A stretch of DNA of 64,000 bases from Mesoterricola sediminis (lineage in GTDB: Bacteria; Acidobacteriota; Holophagae; Holophagales; Holophagaceae), in contig NZ_AP027081.1 of the NCBI RefSeq assembly GCF_030295425.1, forward strand, positions 4,075,001-4,139,000. Reading direction: 5' to 3'. Below, one piece after another: positions 26,493-34,025 of the stretch. The notes under the pieces are model-generated. The model worked only from the letters and a program-made list of their open reading frames with translations, was not told the DNA's origin and ran no database searches. Both the position numbers and the translations under genes were made by a program. How positions within the stretch are numbered: the first letter of the stretch is position 1; the number at the start of each line of letters is the position of its first letter.

Positions 26493-27536
26493 TCAGGCCT
26501 GGCCCTGGTCGCGTCTGCTCGCACGAATGACAGTCTGGAAGACGTCGGTGGCGGTCTCGGGATCCAGGCCGGCGGCGGTGGCCCAGGCCCGGCGCTCCGC
26601 CATCACGGCGGCCTCGCGGACGGGGTCCAGCACGGGCGCGCCCAGGGCGGCCTTGGCCCGGCCGGCGCGGCGGCTCAGCTCGGCGCGCCGGGCGAGGAGG
26701 GCCACCAGGTCCCGGTCCACGGCGTCGATGCCCTCCCGGATCTCCTGCAGGGCCGGCGAACGCTGGCCCAGGTCCGGCAGGGCCAGGGCGGCGGGCACGG
26801 GCCCGCCCTGTCCCGCGGCCTCCAGGCCCGCGTGGATGGCGCCGAGGGCCTCCAGGAGCCGCGTGCGGGCCTCGGCGGCGAAGGGGTTGAGGTTCTGGAT
26901 CGCCGCGAAGAGGTGGCTCGCGTCCTCGCGCACCGTCTCCAGCGTGCGCTGAACGGCGTGGAAGGAGGGCGGCGCGAAGGGCAGGTCGGCGCCGGCGCCG
27001 GCGTCCAGCAGGCCCTTGGCGAGGAAGAAGGTCAGGGCGTGGGTGGTCGCCATCACCCGGTCGTGGTCCTCGGGGGTCTGGACGAGCACCTCGCAGCCCA
27101 GGGCGCCGAAGAGGGCCGAGACGCGCTCCGCCGCGCCGGGGCAGGCGGGATCGGGGCAGACCACGGTGCGGATGGGGCGCTCGGCGCGCACGAGGCTCAT
27201 GGGCCCGAAGAGGGGATGGGCGCCGGCCCGGGGGAGGTCGCCGAGGCGTTCGGCCATCCACCGCGCGGGGAGCACCTTCACGCTGGCCACGTCGAACACC
27301 ACCTGGCCGGGCTCCAGGAGGGGCGCCACCGTGTCCAGGACGCCCGGCAGGGCCAGCACCGGCACCGCCAGCGCCACCAGGTCGGCCTCGGCCACCAGGC
27401 CGCGCAGGTCCGAGGCCTGGACCAGGGCGGGGATGTCGGCGCGGGGATCCAGGGCGCGGTAGGGGACGCCGGCCTCCTCCATCAGGCCGCCCAGGGCCCG
27501 CCCGAACTGTCCGAAGCCCAGGATCCCGACCCGCAC
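26493..27536 (-). CDS. tyrA: Prephenate dehydrogenase fused to C-terminal chorismate mutase
   Basis: This is a 347-residue bifunctional-looking tyrosine enzyme. Residues about 1-255 are a TyrA dehydrogenase, with dinucleotide loop VGILGFGQFGRAL, FDVASVKVLPARWM, AGAHPLFGPMS and the substrate-region HDRVMATTHALTFFLAKGL. Residues about 258-345 are an AroQ-type chorismate mutase, with LQEIREGIDAVDRDLVALLARRAEL (in part), the Lys of GRAKAAL, and DPVREAAV. The dehydrogenase-mutase order is the reverse of enterobacterial TyrA. GTG at 27536 was chosen because GGGGAGG lies 5 nt upstream and homology starts there. It is divergent from asnB. Confidence 0.88.
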   Translation of the reverse strand: MRVGILGFGQFGRALGGLMEEAGVPYRALDPRADIPALVQASDLRGLVAEADLVALAVPVLALPGVLDTVAPLLEPGQVVFDVASVKVLPARWMAERLGDLPRAGAHPLFGPMSLVRAERPIRTVVCPDPACPGAAERVSALFGALGCEVLVQTPEDHDRVMATTHALTFFLAKGLLDAGAGADLPFAPPSFHAVQRTLETVREDASHLFAAIQNLNPFAAEARTRLLEALGAIHAGLEAAGQGGPVPAALALPDLGQRSPALQEIREGIDAVDRDLVALLARRAELSRRAGRAKAALGAPVLDPVREAAVMAERRAWATAAGLDPETATDVFQTVIRASRRDQGQA

Positions 27537-27598
27537 GCAGCCCTCCCCGCGTAACAGGCTCGCACGGGTCGGCGCTCCGCCACAACCGGGGGGGCGCC

Positions 27599-27627
27599 TT
27601 GACGGAAGGGGGACCGGGAACGATACT
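27599..27627 (+). promoter_or_regulatory. Sigma-70-type promoter upstream of asnB leader
   Basis: TTGACG (27599-27604) and GATACT (27622-27627) are separated by exactly 17 bp, five of six and four of six matches to the consensus boxes. Transcription would start near 27634. It is the only good promoter pair seen on this strand between the divergent tyrA gene and asnB. Confidence 0.6.
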
Positions 27628-27633
27628 CCCCGG

Positions 27634-27693
27634 ATGACCTTCGTCCTCGCCAACGTCGCCAGCAATCATCCTCCCCCGGGGTGGAGCAGGTGA
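27634..27693 (+). CDS. Candidate 19-residue leader peptide upstream of asnB
   Basis: This ATG-initiated ORF contains two Asn codons (AAC, AAT), ends in TGA and is followed 20 bp later by an intrinsic terminator. The predicted transcription start coincides with its ATG, so it would be read as a leaderless message. Two Asn in 19 codons in front of asparagine synthetase suggests control by asparaginyl-tRNA supply, but the bias is modest and the peptide also has one Trp and three prolines. Confidence 0.4.
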   Translation: MTFVLANVASNHPPPGWSR

Positions 27694-27713
27694 TCCGCGG
27701 GATCCCGACCTTC

Positions 27714-27744
27714 GCCCCACGTCCCGACGTGGGGCTTTTTTTTT
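27714..27744 (+). terminator. Strong intrinsic terminator directly before asnB (attenuator)
   Basis: A perfect 10-bp inverted repeat (27714-27723 with 27726-27735), giving an effective 9-bp stem with a CCCG loop, is followed by nine T (27736-27744). It sits 2 nt before the asnB Shine-Dalgarno AGGAG (27746-27750). Genes upstream lie on the opposite strand, so on the + strand only a transcript heading for asnB can meet it. Confidence 0.85.
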
Positions 27745-27755
27745 CAGGAGCGCCC

Positions 27756-29447
27756 ATGTGCGGAATCCTCGCCATCCTCGACATCGACCCGGCCCGGTCC
27801 CATCCCGCCGAGCTCCGGCGGCAGGCCCTCGCCATGGCGCGGAAGCTGCGCCACCGGGGGCCCGACTGGAGCGGGATCCGCAGCGACGGGCGCGCCATCC
27901 TGGCCCACGAGCGCCTGTCCATCGTGGACGTGGAGCACGGGGCCCAGCCGCTGGAGGATGTGCGGACGGGCTGCCTGTTGACGGTCAACGGTGAGATCTA
28001 CAACCACCAGGAGCTCCGCCGGGGCCTGCGGGACGCCCACCTGTTCCAGACCCGCTCGGACTGCGAGGTGATCCTGTACCTCTACGAGGAGGATTCGCCG
28101 CGCGCCTTCCTCAACCGCATGAACGGGATCTTCGCGTTCGTCCTCTACGATCCCCGCCGGGACACCTGGCTGATCGCCCGTGACCCCCTCGGGGTGGTGC
28201 CCCTGTACCTGGGCTGGGACCGGAACGAGAACCTCTACGCCGCCTCCGAGCTCAAGGCGCTGGCCGGCACCTGCGAGCGCATCCAGGAATTCCCGCCGGG
28301 GTGCTACCTGCTGGGAAGCGAGCGGGAGAAGGGTTTCCAGCGCTACTACACGCCGGCCTGGGCCGAACCCGGCCACGTGCCGGACCGCCCTGCCGATCCG
28401 ACGGCCATCCGCGAGGCCCTCCAGGCCGCGGTCCACCGCCAGCTCATGTGCGACGTCCCCTACGGCCTCCTGATCTCGGGCGGGGTGGACTCCTCCATCA
28501 TCGCGGCGGTGGCGGCCCAGTACCGCGAGGCGCGGGTGGAGGAGGAGGACCGCGGCCCCTCCTGGTGGCCCCGCATCCACTCCTTCGCCGTGGGCCTGGA
28601 GGGGGCGCCGGACCTGGCTCCCGCCCGCCGCGTGGCGGAGCACATCGGGGCCATCCACCACGAGATCCACTTCACCGTCCAGGAGGGGCTGGACGCCCTC
28701 TCCGACGTGATCTACCACCTGGAGACCTTCGACATCACGACGGTCCGGGCCTCCACGCCCATGTTCCTCATGATGCGGAAGATCCGCGCCATGGGCATCA
28801 AGATGGTCCTCTCCGGCGAGGGCGCCGACGAGATCTTCGGGGGCTACCTGTACTTCCACAAGGCGCCCTCGGGGGCGGCCCTCCACGAGGAGACGGTGCG
28901 CAAGCTCTCGAAGCTGCACCTCTACGACTGCCTGCGGGCCAACAAGTCCGCGGCGGCCTGGAGCGTGGAGGCCCGGGTGCCCTTCCTGGACCGGGAGTTC
29001 CTCGACGTGGCCATGGCCATGGACCCGGCGGCGAAGCTGCCCCGCAACACCGCCAGCGGCATGGAGAAGCACCTGCTGAGGGAGGCCTTCGACGGCTGGA
29101 TCCCGGACGAGGTGCTCTGGCGCCAGAAGGAGCAGTTCTCGGACGGGGTGGGCTACCGCTGGATCGACAGCCTCAAGGCCCACGCGGAGATCGAGGTCAC
29201 GGACGGCATGATGCGCGGCGCCGCGGAGCGGTTCCCCGTGAAGACCCCGCTCACCAAGGAGGCCTACCTCTACCGCCAGATCTTCGAGAGCCACTTCCCC
29301 ATGGCGACGGCCGTCAACTGCGTGCCCTTCGAGGCCAGCGTCGCCTGCAGCACCCCGGCGGCCCTGGCCTGGGATCCCAGCTTCGCGGGACGGGCCGACC
29401 CCTCGGGCCGGGCCGTCGCCGGGGTCCACCGGGACGCGCTCGGGTGA
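27756..29447 (+). CDS. asnB: Asparagine synthetase, glutamine-hydrolysing
   Basis: This 563-residue two-domain enzyme makes asparagine from aspartate, ATP and glutamine. Its N-terminal Ntn glutaminase domain starts with Met-Cys (MCGILAILD), the Cys becoming the nucleophile after Met removal, so ATG 27756 must be the start. RHRGPDW and VNGEIYNHQELR are conserved. The C-terminal synthetase has the PP-loop LLISGGVDSS (about 240-249) and LSGEGADEIFGGY (about 352). AGGAG is 5 nt upstream. A terminator abuts the RBS. The last 30 residues are a non-conserved tail. It ends 10 bp before the stop of the convergent histidine kinase. Confidence 0.94.
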   Translation: MCGILAILDIDPARSHPAELRRQALAMARKLRHRGPDWSGIRSDGRAILAHERLSIVDVEHGAQPLEDVRTGCLLTVNGEIYNHQELRRGLRDAHLFQTRSDCEVILYLYEEDSPRAFLNRMNGIFAFVLYDPRRDTWLIARDPLGVVPLYLGWDRNENLYAASELKALAGTCERIQEFPPGCYLLGSEREKGFQRYYTPAWAEPGHVPDRPADPTAIREALQAAVHRQLMCDVPYGLLISGGVDSSIIAAVAAQYREARVEEEDRGPSWWPRIHSFAVGLEGAPDLAPARRVAEHIGAIHHEIHFTVQEGLDALSDVIYHLETFDITTVRASTPMFLMMRKIRAMGIKMVLSGEGADEIFGGYLYFHKAPSGAALHEETVRKLSKLHLYDCLRANKSAAAWSVEARVPFLDREFLDVAMAMDPAAKLPRNTASGMEKHLLREAFDGWIPDEVLWRQKEQFSDGVGYRWIDSLKAHAEIEVTDGMMRGAAERFPVKTPLTKEAYLYRQIFESHFPMATAVNCVPFEASVACSTPAALAWDPSFAGRADPSGRAVAGVHRDALG

Positions 29448-29456
29448 GGGAGGGCC

Positions 29457-32400
29457 TCAGCGGGGCTCCTCCACGCCGCCCAGGGACTCGAGGAAGGCCC
29501 GGGCGGCCTTGAAGGCCTCCGTGGCGGCGTCGGCGAGGCCGGGGACCGGGAGCGGGTCCCCGGCCTCGGCGGCCGCCTCCAGGCGCTCGCAGGCGGTGCC
29601 GAGGGCGGTGAGGCCGATGGTGCGGGCCGAGCCCTTGAGGGCGTGGGCGGCGAAGGCGAGGCCTCGGCCGTCGCCCTCCGAGGCGGCCCGCCGGAGATCC
29701 TCCACCAGGGCGATGCCGCGCCCCAGGAAGGGATCCACGATGGCCTCGCGGAACGCCACCGCGTCGCGGCCGAACACCTGCCAGACCTTGTCGAAGAGCA
29801 CCGCGTCCAGGGCGAGGCCGGGGTCGGGGGCCGGGAAGCTCCCCGCGGCGTCGGGCACCGGAGTCGGGGCCTCCCCCTTCAGCCAGCGGCCCACGGCCGT
29901 GAGCATGGCCTCCCGGGTGATGGGCTTGGTGAGGTAGTCGTCCATGCCCGCGTCGAGGCAGCGGGCCCGGTCCCCGGCCATGGCGTTGGCGGTCATGGCG
30001 ACGACGGGCACGCGCCGGCCGGTGAGGGCCTCCTGCTCCCGGAGGAGGCGGGTGGCCTGGAACCCGTCCATTTCGGGCATCTGGCAATCCATCAGGACCA
30101 GATCGAAGCCCGTCCGCTCCGCCGCGGCCAGGGCCTCCAGGCCATCCCGGGCGACCGTCACCTCCAGGCCCGCCTCCTCCAGGAACTTGCGGGCGATGGC
30201 CTGGTTGACCTCATGGTCTTCCGCCAGGAGAACCCGTCCGGTCAGGCGCTGAACGGGCCGCTCAGCCCCGCGCCGGATCGGGTCGGGGAGGGACTGCCGC
30301 ACCACCTCGGGGCGGCCCGGCTCGCGGCCCAGGGCGGCCCGGAGGGCATGGACGAGGCTCTTCCGGTTGATGGGCTTGAACAGGTAGGCGTCGAACCAGG
30401 GACCCGCCCTGCGCACCGAGCCGTCCCCCACGGCGGTGCCGGTGAGCAGGGCAAGGGCCAGGGGCGAGAACCGGGGATCCTCCCGGAGGGCCTGGGCGAA
30501 GGCGCTGCCGTCCTCCCGGCCCTGGAGGTGGAAGTCCACGGTGACGGCGTCGAAGGGGGTCCCCTGCGCGAGGGCCTCCGCCAGCAGGGCCCGGGCCTCC
30601 GGGGCCGAGGCGGCGCAGGCCGGTTCGGCTCCGGCGGCCTCCAGCTGCCGGGCCAGCAGCTTCTGGTCCAGGGGGTTGTCATCCAGGATGAGGATCCGCT
30701 TCCCGGCCAGGTCTTCCGGCATGCGGGGTTCGGGGGGCGCGGCGGGATCGGCCTGGAGGGGGAGTTCCACGAACAGGGTGGTGCCGAGGCCGGGCCGGCT
30801 CTCCAGGCGGACCGAGCCGCCCATGGAGGCCAGGATGCGCTTGACCAGCACGAGGCCGAGGCCGGTGCCGCCGAAGCGGCGGGCCGTGGAGGACTCCGCC
30901 TGCACGAAGGGCTGGAAGAGGCGCCCCTGCTTTTCCTCGGGGATGCCGATCCCCGTGTCCTGCACGGTGAGGCGGAAGGGGCCGTCCGGATCCCGCTCGA
31001 CGCCGATGAAGACGTGGCCCTCCTCCGTGAACTTGATGGCGTTGCTCACCAGGTTGTTGAGCACCTGGCGGACGCGTCCCGCGTCCCCCACCACCCGGGC
31101 CGGGGTGGCGGGATCGTAGTCGACCAGGACCTCCACCCGCCGGTTGCGGAGCCGGGCGCGGAACAGCTCCGCCACCTCGAAGACCAGTTCCTCCAGGTCG
31201 AAGGGCAGACTGGCCAGGGAAAGCTGACCCGCCTCGATCTTGGAGAAATCGAGGAGGTCGTTGAGCAGGTCCAGGAGGGCCTCGCCGGAGCGGTTGATGG
31301 CCAGGACGTAATCCTGCTGCTCCGGGGAGAGGGAGGTTCCGGCCAGGAGCTCGGCCATGCCCAGCACGCCGTGGAGGGGGGTCCGGATCTCGTGGCTCAT
31401 GTTGGCGAGGAATTCCGACTTGGCGACGCTGGCGGCGTTGGCGCGCTGGGTCTCCTCCTGGAGCAGGCTGTTCAGGCGGCCGGCTTCCTCCAGGGCGCGG
31501 CGCTGGGCCAGTTCCGCGTTCATGAGGTCCGTGATCTCCGCGATGCTGCCCACCATGCGCAGGGGCGCGCCGGCGGCATCCCGCTCCACCACCTGCCCCC
31601 GGTCCAGCACCCAGACCGTCTCGCCATCGGTGCGGCGGAGGCGGTGCCGGCTCAGGTAGGGCGCCCCCGTGTCCAGGCTCGCCTGGATTCGGTCCTGCAG
31701 CGCGGGCAGGTCGTCGGGGAAGATCCAGGCGGAGAAGGTGTCGAAGGGGTGCTCCAGGAAGCGCTCGTCCAGGCCCAGGATCCGGCACCAGCGCACGTTG
31801 TGCGTCACGCGGCCGCTGCGGATCTCCCAGTCCCAGATGCCCTCCCCCGTGGCCTCCATGGCGTAGGTGAGCCGGCGTTCGGCCTGGATGCGGGGGGTCT
31901 CGTCCCGCATGCTCACCAGGAAGGTGTTGCCCTCGGGGACGGGCAAGCGCGACAGGGCGATGGTGGCGATGAAGGAGGTGCCGTCGGGCCGGACATGGGT
32001 CCAGTCGAAGCGGATCACCCCCACCTCCGATGCCCGGCGCAGGTGGCGGCGCGCCAGGTCCACGCTGGGGGTGCCATCCGGCTGGACCTCCGGCGAGAAA
32101 TCCACCGGGGAATGCCCCAGGAGGGACGCCCGGTCCACCCCCAGCAGGGACAGGGCCGAGGGATTGCAGGCGGTGTAGCGGCCCCCCGTCATGAGGAGGT
32201 AGGCGTCGGGGGACTCGTCGAAGAGCATGCGGTGGCGGGCCTCGCTCAGGGAGAGCTTGTGCTCGGTGGCCTTCCGCTCCGTGATGTCCTCCCAGGTCCA
32301 GATGCTGCCGCGGGCGGGGTCCTGGGGATCGACGAGGGAGCCGCACAGCCAGACCCAGATGGGCGTGCCGTCCTTGCGGACCATCGCCACCTCGGCCTTG

Positions 32401-34025
32401 TGGACGCCGCCGGCCAGGATGACCGGGTAGGCCTGGGCCCGGAGGGCCTCGTAGGCGGCCTCGTCGGGATACACCCGCCGCACGGAGCTGCCCTCCAGCT
32501 CTTCGGAAGACCAGCCCACCAGGCCCGCCATGCGGCGGTTGGTCCACACGAAGTGGCGGTCCTTCACGTGGGTGATGCCCACGCTGGCCGAATCGAGGAT
32601 GGCCTGCTGCTCCCGGCTGAGGCGGGCCAGTTCGTCCCGCAGGTTGCGGGCCTCCGTCACGTCCCGGCCCACGGCCAGCACGCCCAGCACCTTGCCGTTC
32701 GCATCCCGCACCGGGGACTTGAGGGTGTCCACGTGGAGCACCCGGCCATCGGGGTAGTGGTGGACTTCGTCGATGTGGATGGGGCCGCCCCCCTCCAGCG
32801 CCCGGTGATCGTCCCGGCGGAACCCCGCCGCCATCTCCGGAGGATAGAGGTCCTCGTCCCGCAGGCCGACGATCTCCGACCGCGTCCGCCCCTCCAGCTC
32901 CTGGAAGGCCGGGTTGCAGGCCAGGTACCGCCCGTCCAGCCCCTTGAAGAACACCACGTCCGGGATGGCGTCCAGGAGGCTCTTGAACATGGATTCGCCG
33001 GCCTGGGCCCGGGACATGGCCAGGTCGCGGGCCCGGGCCAGCTCCCAGGCGAGGGTGGCCAGGAGGAGGGTCGCCAGGGCCCCCGTCAGGATCACGACGC
33101 CCTCGCGGCCCCGCAGGCGCTCCAGGACGCCGGGCTCCCGGCGCCACGCGGTGACGGTCCAGGTCCGATGGCCGACCTCCAGACGCCCGCGCGCCGTGGC
33201 CCCCACCGGGGCGGTTCCGGCCTGGAAAAGGAGGCTGCCGGCCCCGTCCGCGGGGCCGTCGTGCAGGGTGACGGCCAGGTCCTCCGGCAGGGGCCCCAGG
33301 GTACCCTCCAAGAGGTCGGCCATGCGGAAGGGCGCGTAGATCCAGCCCAGGAGACCCTGCTGCCGATCCGCGGCCGGGCGGGGCGTGGACGGCAGGTCCT
33401 GGGGGCGCCGCACGGGCAGGTACATGAGGAAGCCCGCCTGGAGGTCCTTCCCCGATTCCTGGACGAGGGTCACCGGGCCGCTGACGACGATGTCGTCCTG
33501 GGCCGCCGCCTGGTCCATGGCGGCGCGGCGCACGGGGTCGGTGTACATGTCGTAGCCGAAGGCCCGCAGGTTGCGGCCGGTCAGGGGCTCCAGGTAGACG
33601 ATGGCCGTGGCGGGACCCGCCCCCGGGTCGGGCCGGATGGCGTAGTCGGGGAACCCCTCGGCCCGCACCCGGGCTTCGTGGACGGCCTTGCTCCCCGGCG
33701 GGATCCAGGCGGCGAAGCCCACGCCCTGGATCCCGGGGAAGGCGCGGTCGAAATCCACGCCGTCCACGTAGGCCCGGAACTGGGCCCGGTCCATGGGCGC
33801 GAACCGGAAGAGGGTCCGCCCGTCGCGCAGGATCTGGGCGTAGGCGTCCATGCGCTGGCGGATGCGGCCCATGGCGTCCTGCATCTCCAGTTCCACCTGG
33901 ACCTTGCCGTCCTGGATGGCGTCGGCCCGGGCGGACCGCCAGATGGCGAAGGTGATCACCGCCCCGCAGGCCGCCACGAAGGCGGGGGCCATCCAGGCCG
34001 GGAATTTCCGGAGCCGCAGCTTCAC
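29457..34025 (-). CDS. Hybrid sensor histidine kinase: CHASE, PAS, HisKA, REC-REC, HPt
   Basis: This 1522-residue membrane sensor has a TM helix at about 12-30 and a periplasmic CHASE domain at about 45-290 (FPGIQGVGFAAWIP, AFGYDMYTDPVRRAAMD). A second TM helix follows at about 308-328. Four PAS-like domains start near 345, 472, 595 and 715. The kinase core has the phospho-His in ANMSHEIRTPL (about 877) and an HATPase with GTGLGLVLVKRI (about 1050). Receiver 1 (about 1104-1228) has its Asp in VTVDFHL. Receiver 2 (about 1262-1380) has VLMDCQMPEMDG. The HPt domain (about 1420-1518) carries AHALKGSA. It is a complete internal phosphorelay whose output regulator is not adjacent. A porin gene follows upstream on the same strand. 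Confidence 0.93.
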   Translation of the reverse strand: MKLRLRKFPAWMAPAFVAACGAVITFAIWRSARADAIQDGKVQVELEMQDAMGRIRQRMDAYAQILRDGRTLFRFAPMDRAQFRAYVDGVDFDRAFPGIQGVGFAAWIPPGSKAVHEARVRAEGFPDYAIRPDPGAGPATAIVYLEPLTGRNLRAFGYDMYTDPVRRAAMDQAAAQDDIVVSGPVTLVQESGKDLQAGFLMYLPVRRPQDLPSTPRPAADRQQGLLGWIYAPFRMADLLEGTLGPLPEDLAVTLHDGPADGAGSLLFQAGTAPVGATARGRLEVGHRTWTVTAWRREPGVLERLRGREGVVILTGALATLLLATLAWELARARDLAMSRAQAGESMFKSLLDAIPDVVFFKGLDGRYLACNPAFQELEGRTRSEIVGLRDEDLYPPEMAAGFRRDDHRALEGGGPIHIDEVHHYPDGRVLHVDTLKSPVRDANGKVLGVLAVGRDVTEARNLRDELARLSREQQAILDSASVGITHVKDRHFVWTNRRMAGLVGWSSEELEGSSVRRVYPDEAAYEALRAQAYPVILAGGVHKAEVAMVRKDGTPIWVWLCGSLVDPQDPARGSIWTWEDITERKATEHKLSLSEARHRMLFDESPDAYLLMTGGRYTACNPSALSLLGVDRASLLGHSPVDFSPEVQPDGTPSVDLARRHLRRASEVGVIRFDWTHVRPDGTSFIATIALSRLPVPEGNTFLVSMRDETPRIQAERRLTYAMEATGEGIWDWEIRSGRVTHNVRWCRILGLDERFLEHPFDTFSAWIFPDDLPALQDRIQASLDTGAPYLSRHRLRRTDGETVWVLDRGQVVERDAAGAPLRMVGSIAEITDLMNAELAQRRALEEAGRLNSLLQEETQRANAASVAKSEFLANMSHEIRTPLHGVLGMAELLAGTSLSPEQQDYVLAINRSGEALLDLLNDLLDFSKIEAGQLSLASLPFDLEELVFEVAELFRARLRNRRVEVLVDYDPATPARVVGDAGRVRQVLNNLVSNAIKFTEEGHVFIGVERDPDGPFRLTVQDTGIGIPEEKQGRLFQPFVQAESSTARRFGGTGLGLVLVKRILASMGGSVRLESRPGLGTTLFVELPLQADPAAPPEPRMPEDLAGKRILILDDNPLDQKLLARQLEAAGAEPACAASAPEARALLAEALAQGTPFDAVTVDFHLQGREDGSAFAQALREDPRFSPLALALLTGTAVGDGSVRRAGPWFDAYLFKPINRKSLVHALRAALGREPGRPEVVRQSLPDPIRRGAERPVQRLTGRVLLAEDHEVNQAIARKFLEEAGLEVTVARDGLEALAAAERTGFDLVLMDCQMPEMDGFQATRLLREQEALTGRRVPVVAMTANAMAGDRARCLDAGMDDYLTKPITREAMLTAVGRWLKGEAPTPVPDAAGSFPAPDPGLALDAVLFDKVWQVFGRDAVAFREAIVDPFLGRGIALVEDLRRAASEGDGRGLAFAAHALKGSARTIGLTALGTACERLEAAAEAGDPLPVPGLADAATEAFKAARAFLESLGGVEEPR

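Follow-up and report, generated by a model that had tools for sequence, protein, structure and literature searches.

Organisation of the region upstream of asnB

The window, a 64,000-nucleotide stretch of the genome (one contig of 4.52 Mb) of Mesoterricola sediminis, a member of the soil family Holophagaceae (Acidobacteriota), contains the gene for the glutamine-hydrolysing asparagine synthase B, asnB, which matched NCBIfam family NF006949 at 813 bits against a cut-off of 499. Its upstream neighbour, a chorismate mutase/prephenate dehydrogenase-like gene (26493-27539), lies on the minus strand and is divergent, and its downstream neighbour is convergent, so asnB apparently forms a transcription unit of one gene. 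A large hybrid sensor kinase with CHASE, several PAS and HisKA domains, two receivers and an Hpt domain is encoded on the minus strand at 29457-34025.

The first-pass annotation had described a promoter, a 19-codon ORF with two Asn codons, a terminator with nine T and a Shine-Dalgarno sequence ahead of asnB, and we found all of these, and asnB itself, at the positions it had given (Table 1). Its statement that only an asnB-directed transcript can meet this terminator is also true here, since the nearest upstream gene is on the minus strand. The promoter is the only sigma-70-like site between 27200 and 28200 (mean in shuffled sequences 0.0), and the terminator is the sole one in that kilobase (0.1 in shuffles). 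Two Asn among 18 leader codons have a probability of about 0.03 given the background Asn frequency of 1.5% in four window proteins. Taken alone, the two Asn codons of the window are poor evidence for regulation by asparagine, and it is the 46 relatives that carry the case.

Table 1. Positions of the features around the asnB leader in the window, and of two further leaders in the same genome.
Feature	Position	Strand	Basis or remark
Sigma-70-like promoter, -35 TTGACG, 17-nt spacer, -10 GATACT	27599..27627	+	Motif scan; layout common to 5/5 leader-bearing genomes of the genus
Leader ORF, 19 codons and TGA, MTFVLANVASNHPPPGWSR	ATG 27634, TGA 27691-27693	+	ORF read from sequence; probably leaderless
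Asn codon 7 (AAC)	27652..27654	+	Aligned Asn found across leaders
Asn codon 11 (AAT), predicted best position for freeing the antiterminator	27664..27666	+	Ribosome-stall folding
Hairpin 1:2 (anti-antiterminator), predicted to hide region 2 without a stalled ribosome	27666..27684	+	Minimum-energy fold
Region 2, putative antiterminator 5' strand, GGGGTGGAG	27678..27686	+	Predicted pairing with 27710-27718
Putative antiterminator 3' strand, CTTCGCCCC	27710..27718	+	Predicted fold; shares 5 nt with the terminator 5' arm
Intrinsic terminator	27714..27744	+	Stem 27714-27735, 9 pairs, 4-nt loop; nine T at 27736-27744
asnB Shine-Dalgarno-like AGGAG	27746..27750	+	Sequence; immediately 3' of the T run
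asnB, glutamine-hydrolysing asparagine synthase B	27756..29447 (ATG 27756)	+	NF006949 match
Leader rich in His, MTPSRHAHPHRIPLPG, with a terminator, upstream of a hisG-like gene (L216)	G000:C1 about 991130-991260		Outside the window
Leader rich in Pro, MTSAAVRPASPRPSHLGAPERVPSA, with a terminator, upstream of a proB-like gene (L270)	G000:C1 about 3728340-3728500		Outside the window

The distance from the -10 hexamer to the leader ATG is exactly 6 nt in each of the five genomes of the window's genus that carry the leader, and because of this spacing the leader ORF is probably leaderless there. In other genera this distance is mostly 14-20 nt, and an AGGC-type site is often present. The leader ORF of the C. 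glutamicum ilvBNC attenuator starts no more than one nucleotide away from the transcription start (PMC11857589), and that of Sinorhizobium trpL is leaderless (PMC7298713). Both resemble the arrangement predicted, from promoter spacing only, for the window's genus, but they serve other amino acids and their sequences are unrelated to the asnB leader.

Conservation of the leader among Holophagaceae

asnB is present in 55 of 77 Holophagaceae genomes, and 46 of the 50 asnB genes with readable upstream DNA are preceded by a promoter, a leader ORF and a terminator in this order. Comparing the leaders of relatives for conserved Asn codons had been proposed in the first-pass annotation as a check on its reading, and absence of the terminator in close relatives as grounds for abandoning it. 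The comparison revealed Asn codons in 46/46 leaders, and the terminator is present at all 46 loci. The leaders hold 2-5 Asn codons each (2 in four leaders, 3 in 13, 4 in 20 and 5 in nine), the window's leader being at the low end of this range, and Asn accounts for 14.4% of their residues. Two codon positions are Asn in all 38 distinct leaders outside the window's genus; AAC and AAT interchange at these positions while the adjacent codons vary freely. Insertions and deletions within the leader ORF are multiples of three, whereas those 3' of the stop codon are not, and the stretch between the stop codon and the terminator varies freely. The triplet-only indels and the invariant Asn with synonymous change together indicate that the leader is a translated ORF, as predicted from the alignment, with selection on asparagine itself.

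In genera other than the window's, the leader peptide has a conserved end (RADRAW), whose codons vary almost as little at the third position as at the first two. This suggests that the conserved peptide probably reflects a constraint on RNA pairing and not on the peptide. Region 2, which encodes RADRAW in these genera, contains GCGGATCG or GCGAATCG, a near copy of the terminator 3' arm. The window's genus has different region-2 and terminator sequences from the other genera, and the predicted exclusive pairing is retained in both.

The four asnB loci without the unit are those of G051 and G052, which belong to one genus, of G069, an assembly with 8% contamination, and of G036. In G036 (locus L031, Geothrix-group) the -35 element lies 38 bp from the asnB ATG compared to about 200 bp usually; the promoter has been retained, and leader and terminator have both been lost, making this upstream region a natural control. 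In two genus-mates (L005 and L006) the upstream gene may share the direction of asnB, and the leader is nonetheless kept.

Predicted RNA switch and competing explanations

In the predicted folds region 2 has two possible partners, the segment that precedes it, with which it would form hairpin 1:2, and the antiterminator 3' strand. Equilibrium folding of the window's leader, with the downstream edge of the ribosome assumed to lie 13 nt from the A-site codon, gave a terminator probability of 0.08 with a ribosome on Asn codon 11 and of 0.98 with a ribosome at the stop codon. In other genera the terminator mostly wins at equilibrium even with a stalled ribosome, so the model requires that the antiterminator forms first. 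Since the equilibrium probability is informative in the window's genus only, we adopted a co-transcriptional test on the partial transcript. Placing the ribosome on those Asn codons that precede region 2 was predicted to leave the terminator arm engaged before the 3' arm is made in 46/46 leaders, and placing it at the leader stop was predicted largely to free that arm. A few leaders have an extra Asn codon inside region 2, to which the stall test is inapplicable. The competing antiterminator fold that the first-pass annotation had suggested looking for is therefore predicted in every leader with a ribosome on its Asn codons.

For 9 of the 10 leaders analysed, the stalled-state antiterminator energy fell below that of dinucleotide shuffles; the difference was 1.8 sd for the window and 2.2-3.7 sd for eight others, and the exception was L033. 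Mean terminator-arm occupancy in the window's genus was not above that of shuffles. The 38-sequence alignment was also inspected for base-pair covariation, and its columns hardly vary, which leaves little room for such a signal. After the Asn codons, the leaders of the window's genus encode Pro-Pro-Pro-Gly (27670-27681 in the window), a possible EF-P-dependent pause that would set the ribosome over region 2.

Collectively, the data suggest that the asnB leader is very probably a transcription attenuator in which the ribosome gauges how much charged tRNA-Asn is available. In this model, RNA polymerase would start at or beside the leader ATG with a ribosome trailing behind it. When Asn-tRNA is plentiful, the ribosome would reach the leader TGA and cover region 2, and the terminator would form ahead of asnB. 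When Asn-tRNA is scarce, the ribosome would stall at Asn codon 11 (or 7) and prevent hairpin 1:2, so that region 2 could pair with the antiterminator 3' strand and the polymerase could continue into asnB. If this reading holds, a shortage of asparagine should switch asnB on. The presence of AsnRS means that charging of tRNA-Asn can depend on free Asn; GatB is present beside it, and given GatB there may be an Asn-independent route to Asn-tRNA alongside AsnRS.

That the terminator must be conditional was an inference in the first-pass annotation, and the comparative data now supply support for it. A constitutive terminator, serving only to reduce the expression of asnB or to stop transcripts that began elsewhere, would fit with the strength of the hairpin, which forms in free RNA on folding. 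However, the upstream genes are oppositely oriented here, G036 lost the leader and the terminator together while keeping its promoter and the 46 others keep both, and the Asn codons would be needless, all of which makes this explanation very improbable. Similarly, we see little prospect for control of the terminator by a riboswitch for a metabolite, or by a bound protein, within 27634-27713 with the ORF being incidental; a protein or metabolite sensor there had been listed as an option in the first-pass annotation. The terminator does need some condition and the region has a predicted fold (z -2.2), but it is mostly ORF, and neither its triplet indels nor its conserved Asn with synonymous change, nor codon swaps that follow the downstream gene in related leaders, would be expected of an aptamer. 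The freely varying stretch between leader stop and terminator also argues against such a site, as does the Rfam search, in which no family came near its cut-off and no credible match to the leader was found at the gathering threshold or at E up to 10; this search covered the T-box and amino-acid leader families.

Direct reading of uncharged tRNA-Asn by a T-box is a known route for Asn-related genes in Firmicutes, and these T-boxes resemble the proposed asnB leader in responding to tRNA-Asn charging and controlling a terminator (PMC2494555). They differ in that they bind the tRNA directly without translation, whereas the asnB leader lacks the T-box motif, has a predicted translated ORF instead of a single specifier codon, and is about 110 nt long compared to a generic T-box span of about 250 nt (PMC2494555). 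We consider a T-box here to be extremely unlikely. An additional action in trans, like that of peTrpL and rnTrpL of Sinorhizobium (PMC7298713), might come from the leader peptide or from the short RNA left by termination, and would be compatible with attenuation. The conservation of the peptide ends across genera, even between asnB leaders and those of aroG (below), would agree with this, as would the apparently leaderless start in the window's genus, which is like that of trpL; the near-fixed third codon positions in the peptide end fit a constraint on RNA pairing instead, and a trans function appears unlikely. Attenuation through Asn-tRNA, which the first-pass annotation had favoured, remains the best reading of the conserved Asn codons, the predicted antiterminator and the product-matched codons found elsewhere.

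Related leaders and known attenuators

Searching 396 Acidobacteriota genomes with a covariance model of the leaders recovered the asnB leaders and further leaders in Holophagaceae. Model R1, for which the other genera were used, missed the window's own leader because the terminator and region-2 sequence of the window's genus are different. The weak R1 matches in other Acidobacteriota families (G229, G252, G228, G324, G415 and G341) were chance-like, with no matching leader or gene, and were rejected.

Leaders with Tyr, Phe and Trp codons precede DAHP synthase (aroG) at 12 of 30 loci, for example MTPRFHRYYWFPRADRAWHGEGPA. Other leaders were found before a class-II DAHP synthase (MNILRTSFYYFGFRTSARVGGGLN), chorismate mutase/prephenate dehydratase (pheA; MTSRALYFAFSYAPSGAWTGGASN), proC (MSALHFQTPRPSLPPPGAPAGEGLS, with Pro codons) and, in relatives, proB (MTTFPAINPRPNHPTPTDGLERV, with Pro codons); the class-II DAHP synthase, pheA and proB genes were named from sequence and not by family search. 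The proC and proB leaders of relatives share PRPS or PRPN. The aroG leaders carry the same RADRAW-type 3' module as the asnB leaders, and the residue counts, which come from related and not independent sequences, are 172 Asn and 1 Tyr in asnB leaders compared to 4 Asn and 23 Tyr in aroG leaders. Of 10 such leaders put through a simple fold test, 9 were predicted to switch in the same stall-dependent way; the proB leader of the window's genome gave no switch in this test. Our survey of the window's genome, which spanned 2.46 of 4.52 Mb, detected two further leaders, before hisG and proB, both genes being named from sequence (Table 1). The hisG leader (L216) is, judged by its codons and terminator, a probable histidine attenuator.

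In one genome where asnB was not found (G054), the gene that follows an Asn leader (MLKTSLTRQNNRNNANPSTDRAWGGEALV) encodes an asparagine synthetase A-like protein (L069, about 310-1739), which matched NF005054 at 97 bits, under the cut-off of 309. Asparagine synthetase A is unrelated to asnB, and the Asn leader supports a role of this gene as an asparagine synthetase in the asnB-less genome, an example of how leader codons may predict function. Of all the evidence, the agreement of the putative regulatory codons with the product of the gene that follows speaks most strongly for the proposed mechanism. We lean towards the view that Holophagaceae possess a modular family of attenuators that are homologous to one another and specific to this lineage. 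A single RNA switching module, consisting of the terminator and a segment that codes for RADRAW and mimics the terminator, would have been duplicated and re-specified by codon exchange, giving Asn leaders to two asparagine synthetases that are unrelated to each other, Tyr/Phe/Trp leaders to DAHP synthase and possibly Pro leaders to proB and proC. If true, the first leader-peptide attenuators of asparagine biosynthesis, and perhaps of proline biosynthesis, would belong to this family, and a shared module with swapped codons would be a test bed for how attenuators change specificity.

Ribosome-mediated attenuators are known for the trp, his, leu, ilv, thr and phe leaders of Proteobacteria. The asnB leader shares with these a short ORF with cognate codons, a matching biosynthetic gene downstream and, by prediction, exclusive antiterminator and terminator structures; it differs in its Asn specificity, its single-gene target, its occurrence in Acidobacteriota and the lack of an Rfam sequence match. 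An Asn-specific leader-peptide attenuator was not found in the open-access literature searched. The mechanism is classical, while, against that literature, the Asn specificity and the Acidobacteriota lineage look new, and proline attenuators of this leader type seem undescribed. Attenuator candidates have also been proposed as uORFC-8-2 (cysS, with tandem Cys codons, in Rhodobacterales) and uORFC-13-1 (aroF, in Acholeplasma) (PMC8632094). Like the Holophagaceae leaders, these are codon-specific predictions from comparative genomics, and DAHP synthase is targeted in both sets; they differ in lineage and sequence, and do not include an asparagine case (PMC8632094).

Among the asnB genes of other phyla in the 80 nearest loci, an Asn leader with a strong terminator was present only in L089, from a metagenome-assembled genome labelled Gemmatimonadetes; L099 has a weak hairpin only. 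L089 (JACPFW010000012.1, 1340-1500) contains a Holophagaceae-like Asn leader (MTSATLRQSRNNNGNPRANRAWDGAGV) and an asnB with 77% identity; either the unit was transferred as a whole or the contig is mis-binned.
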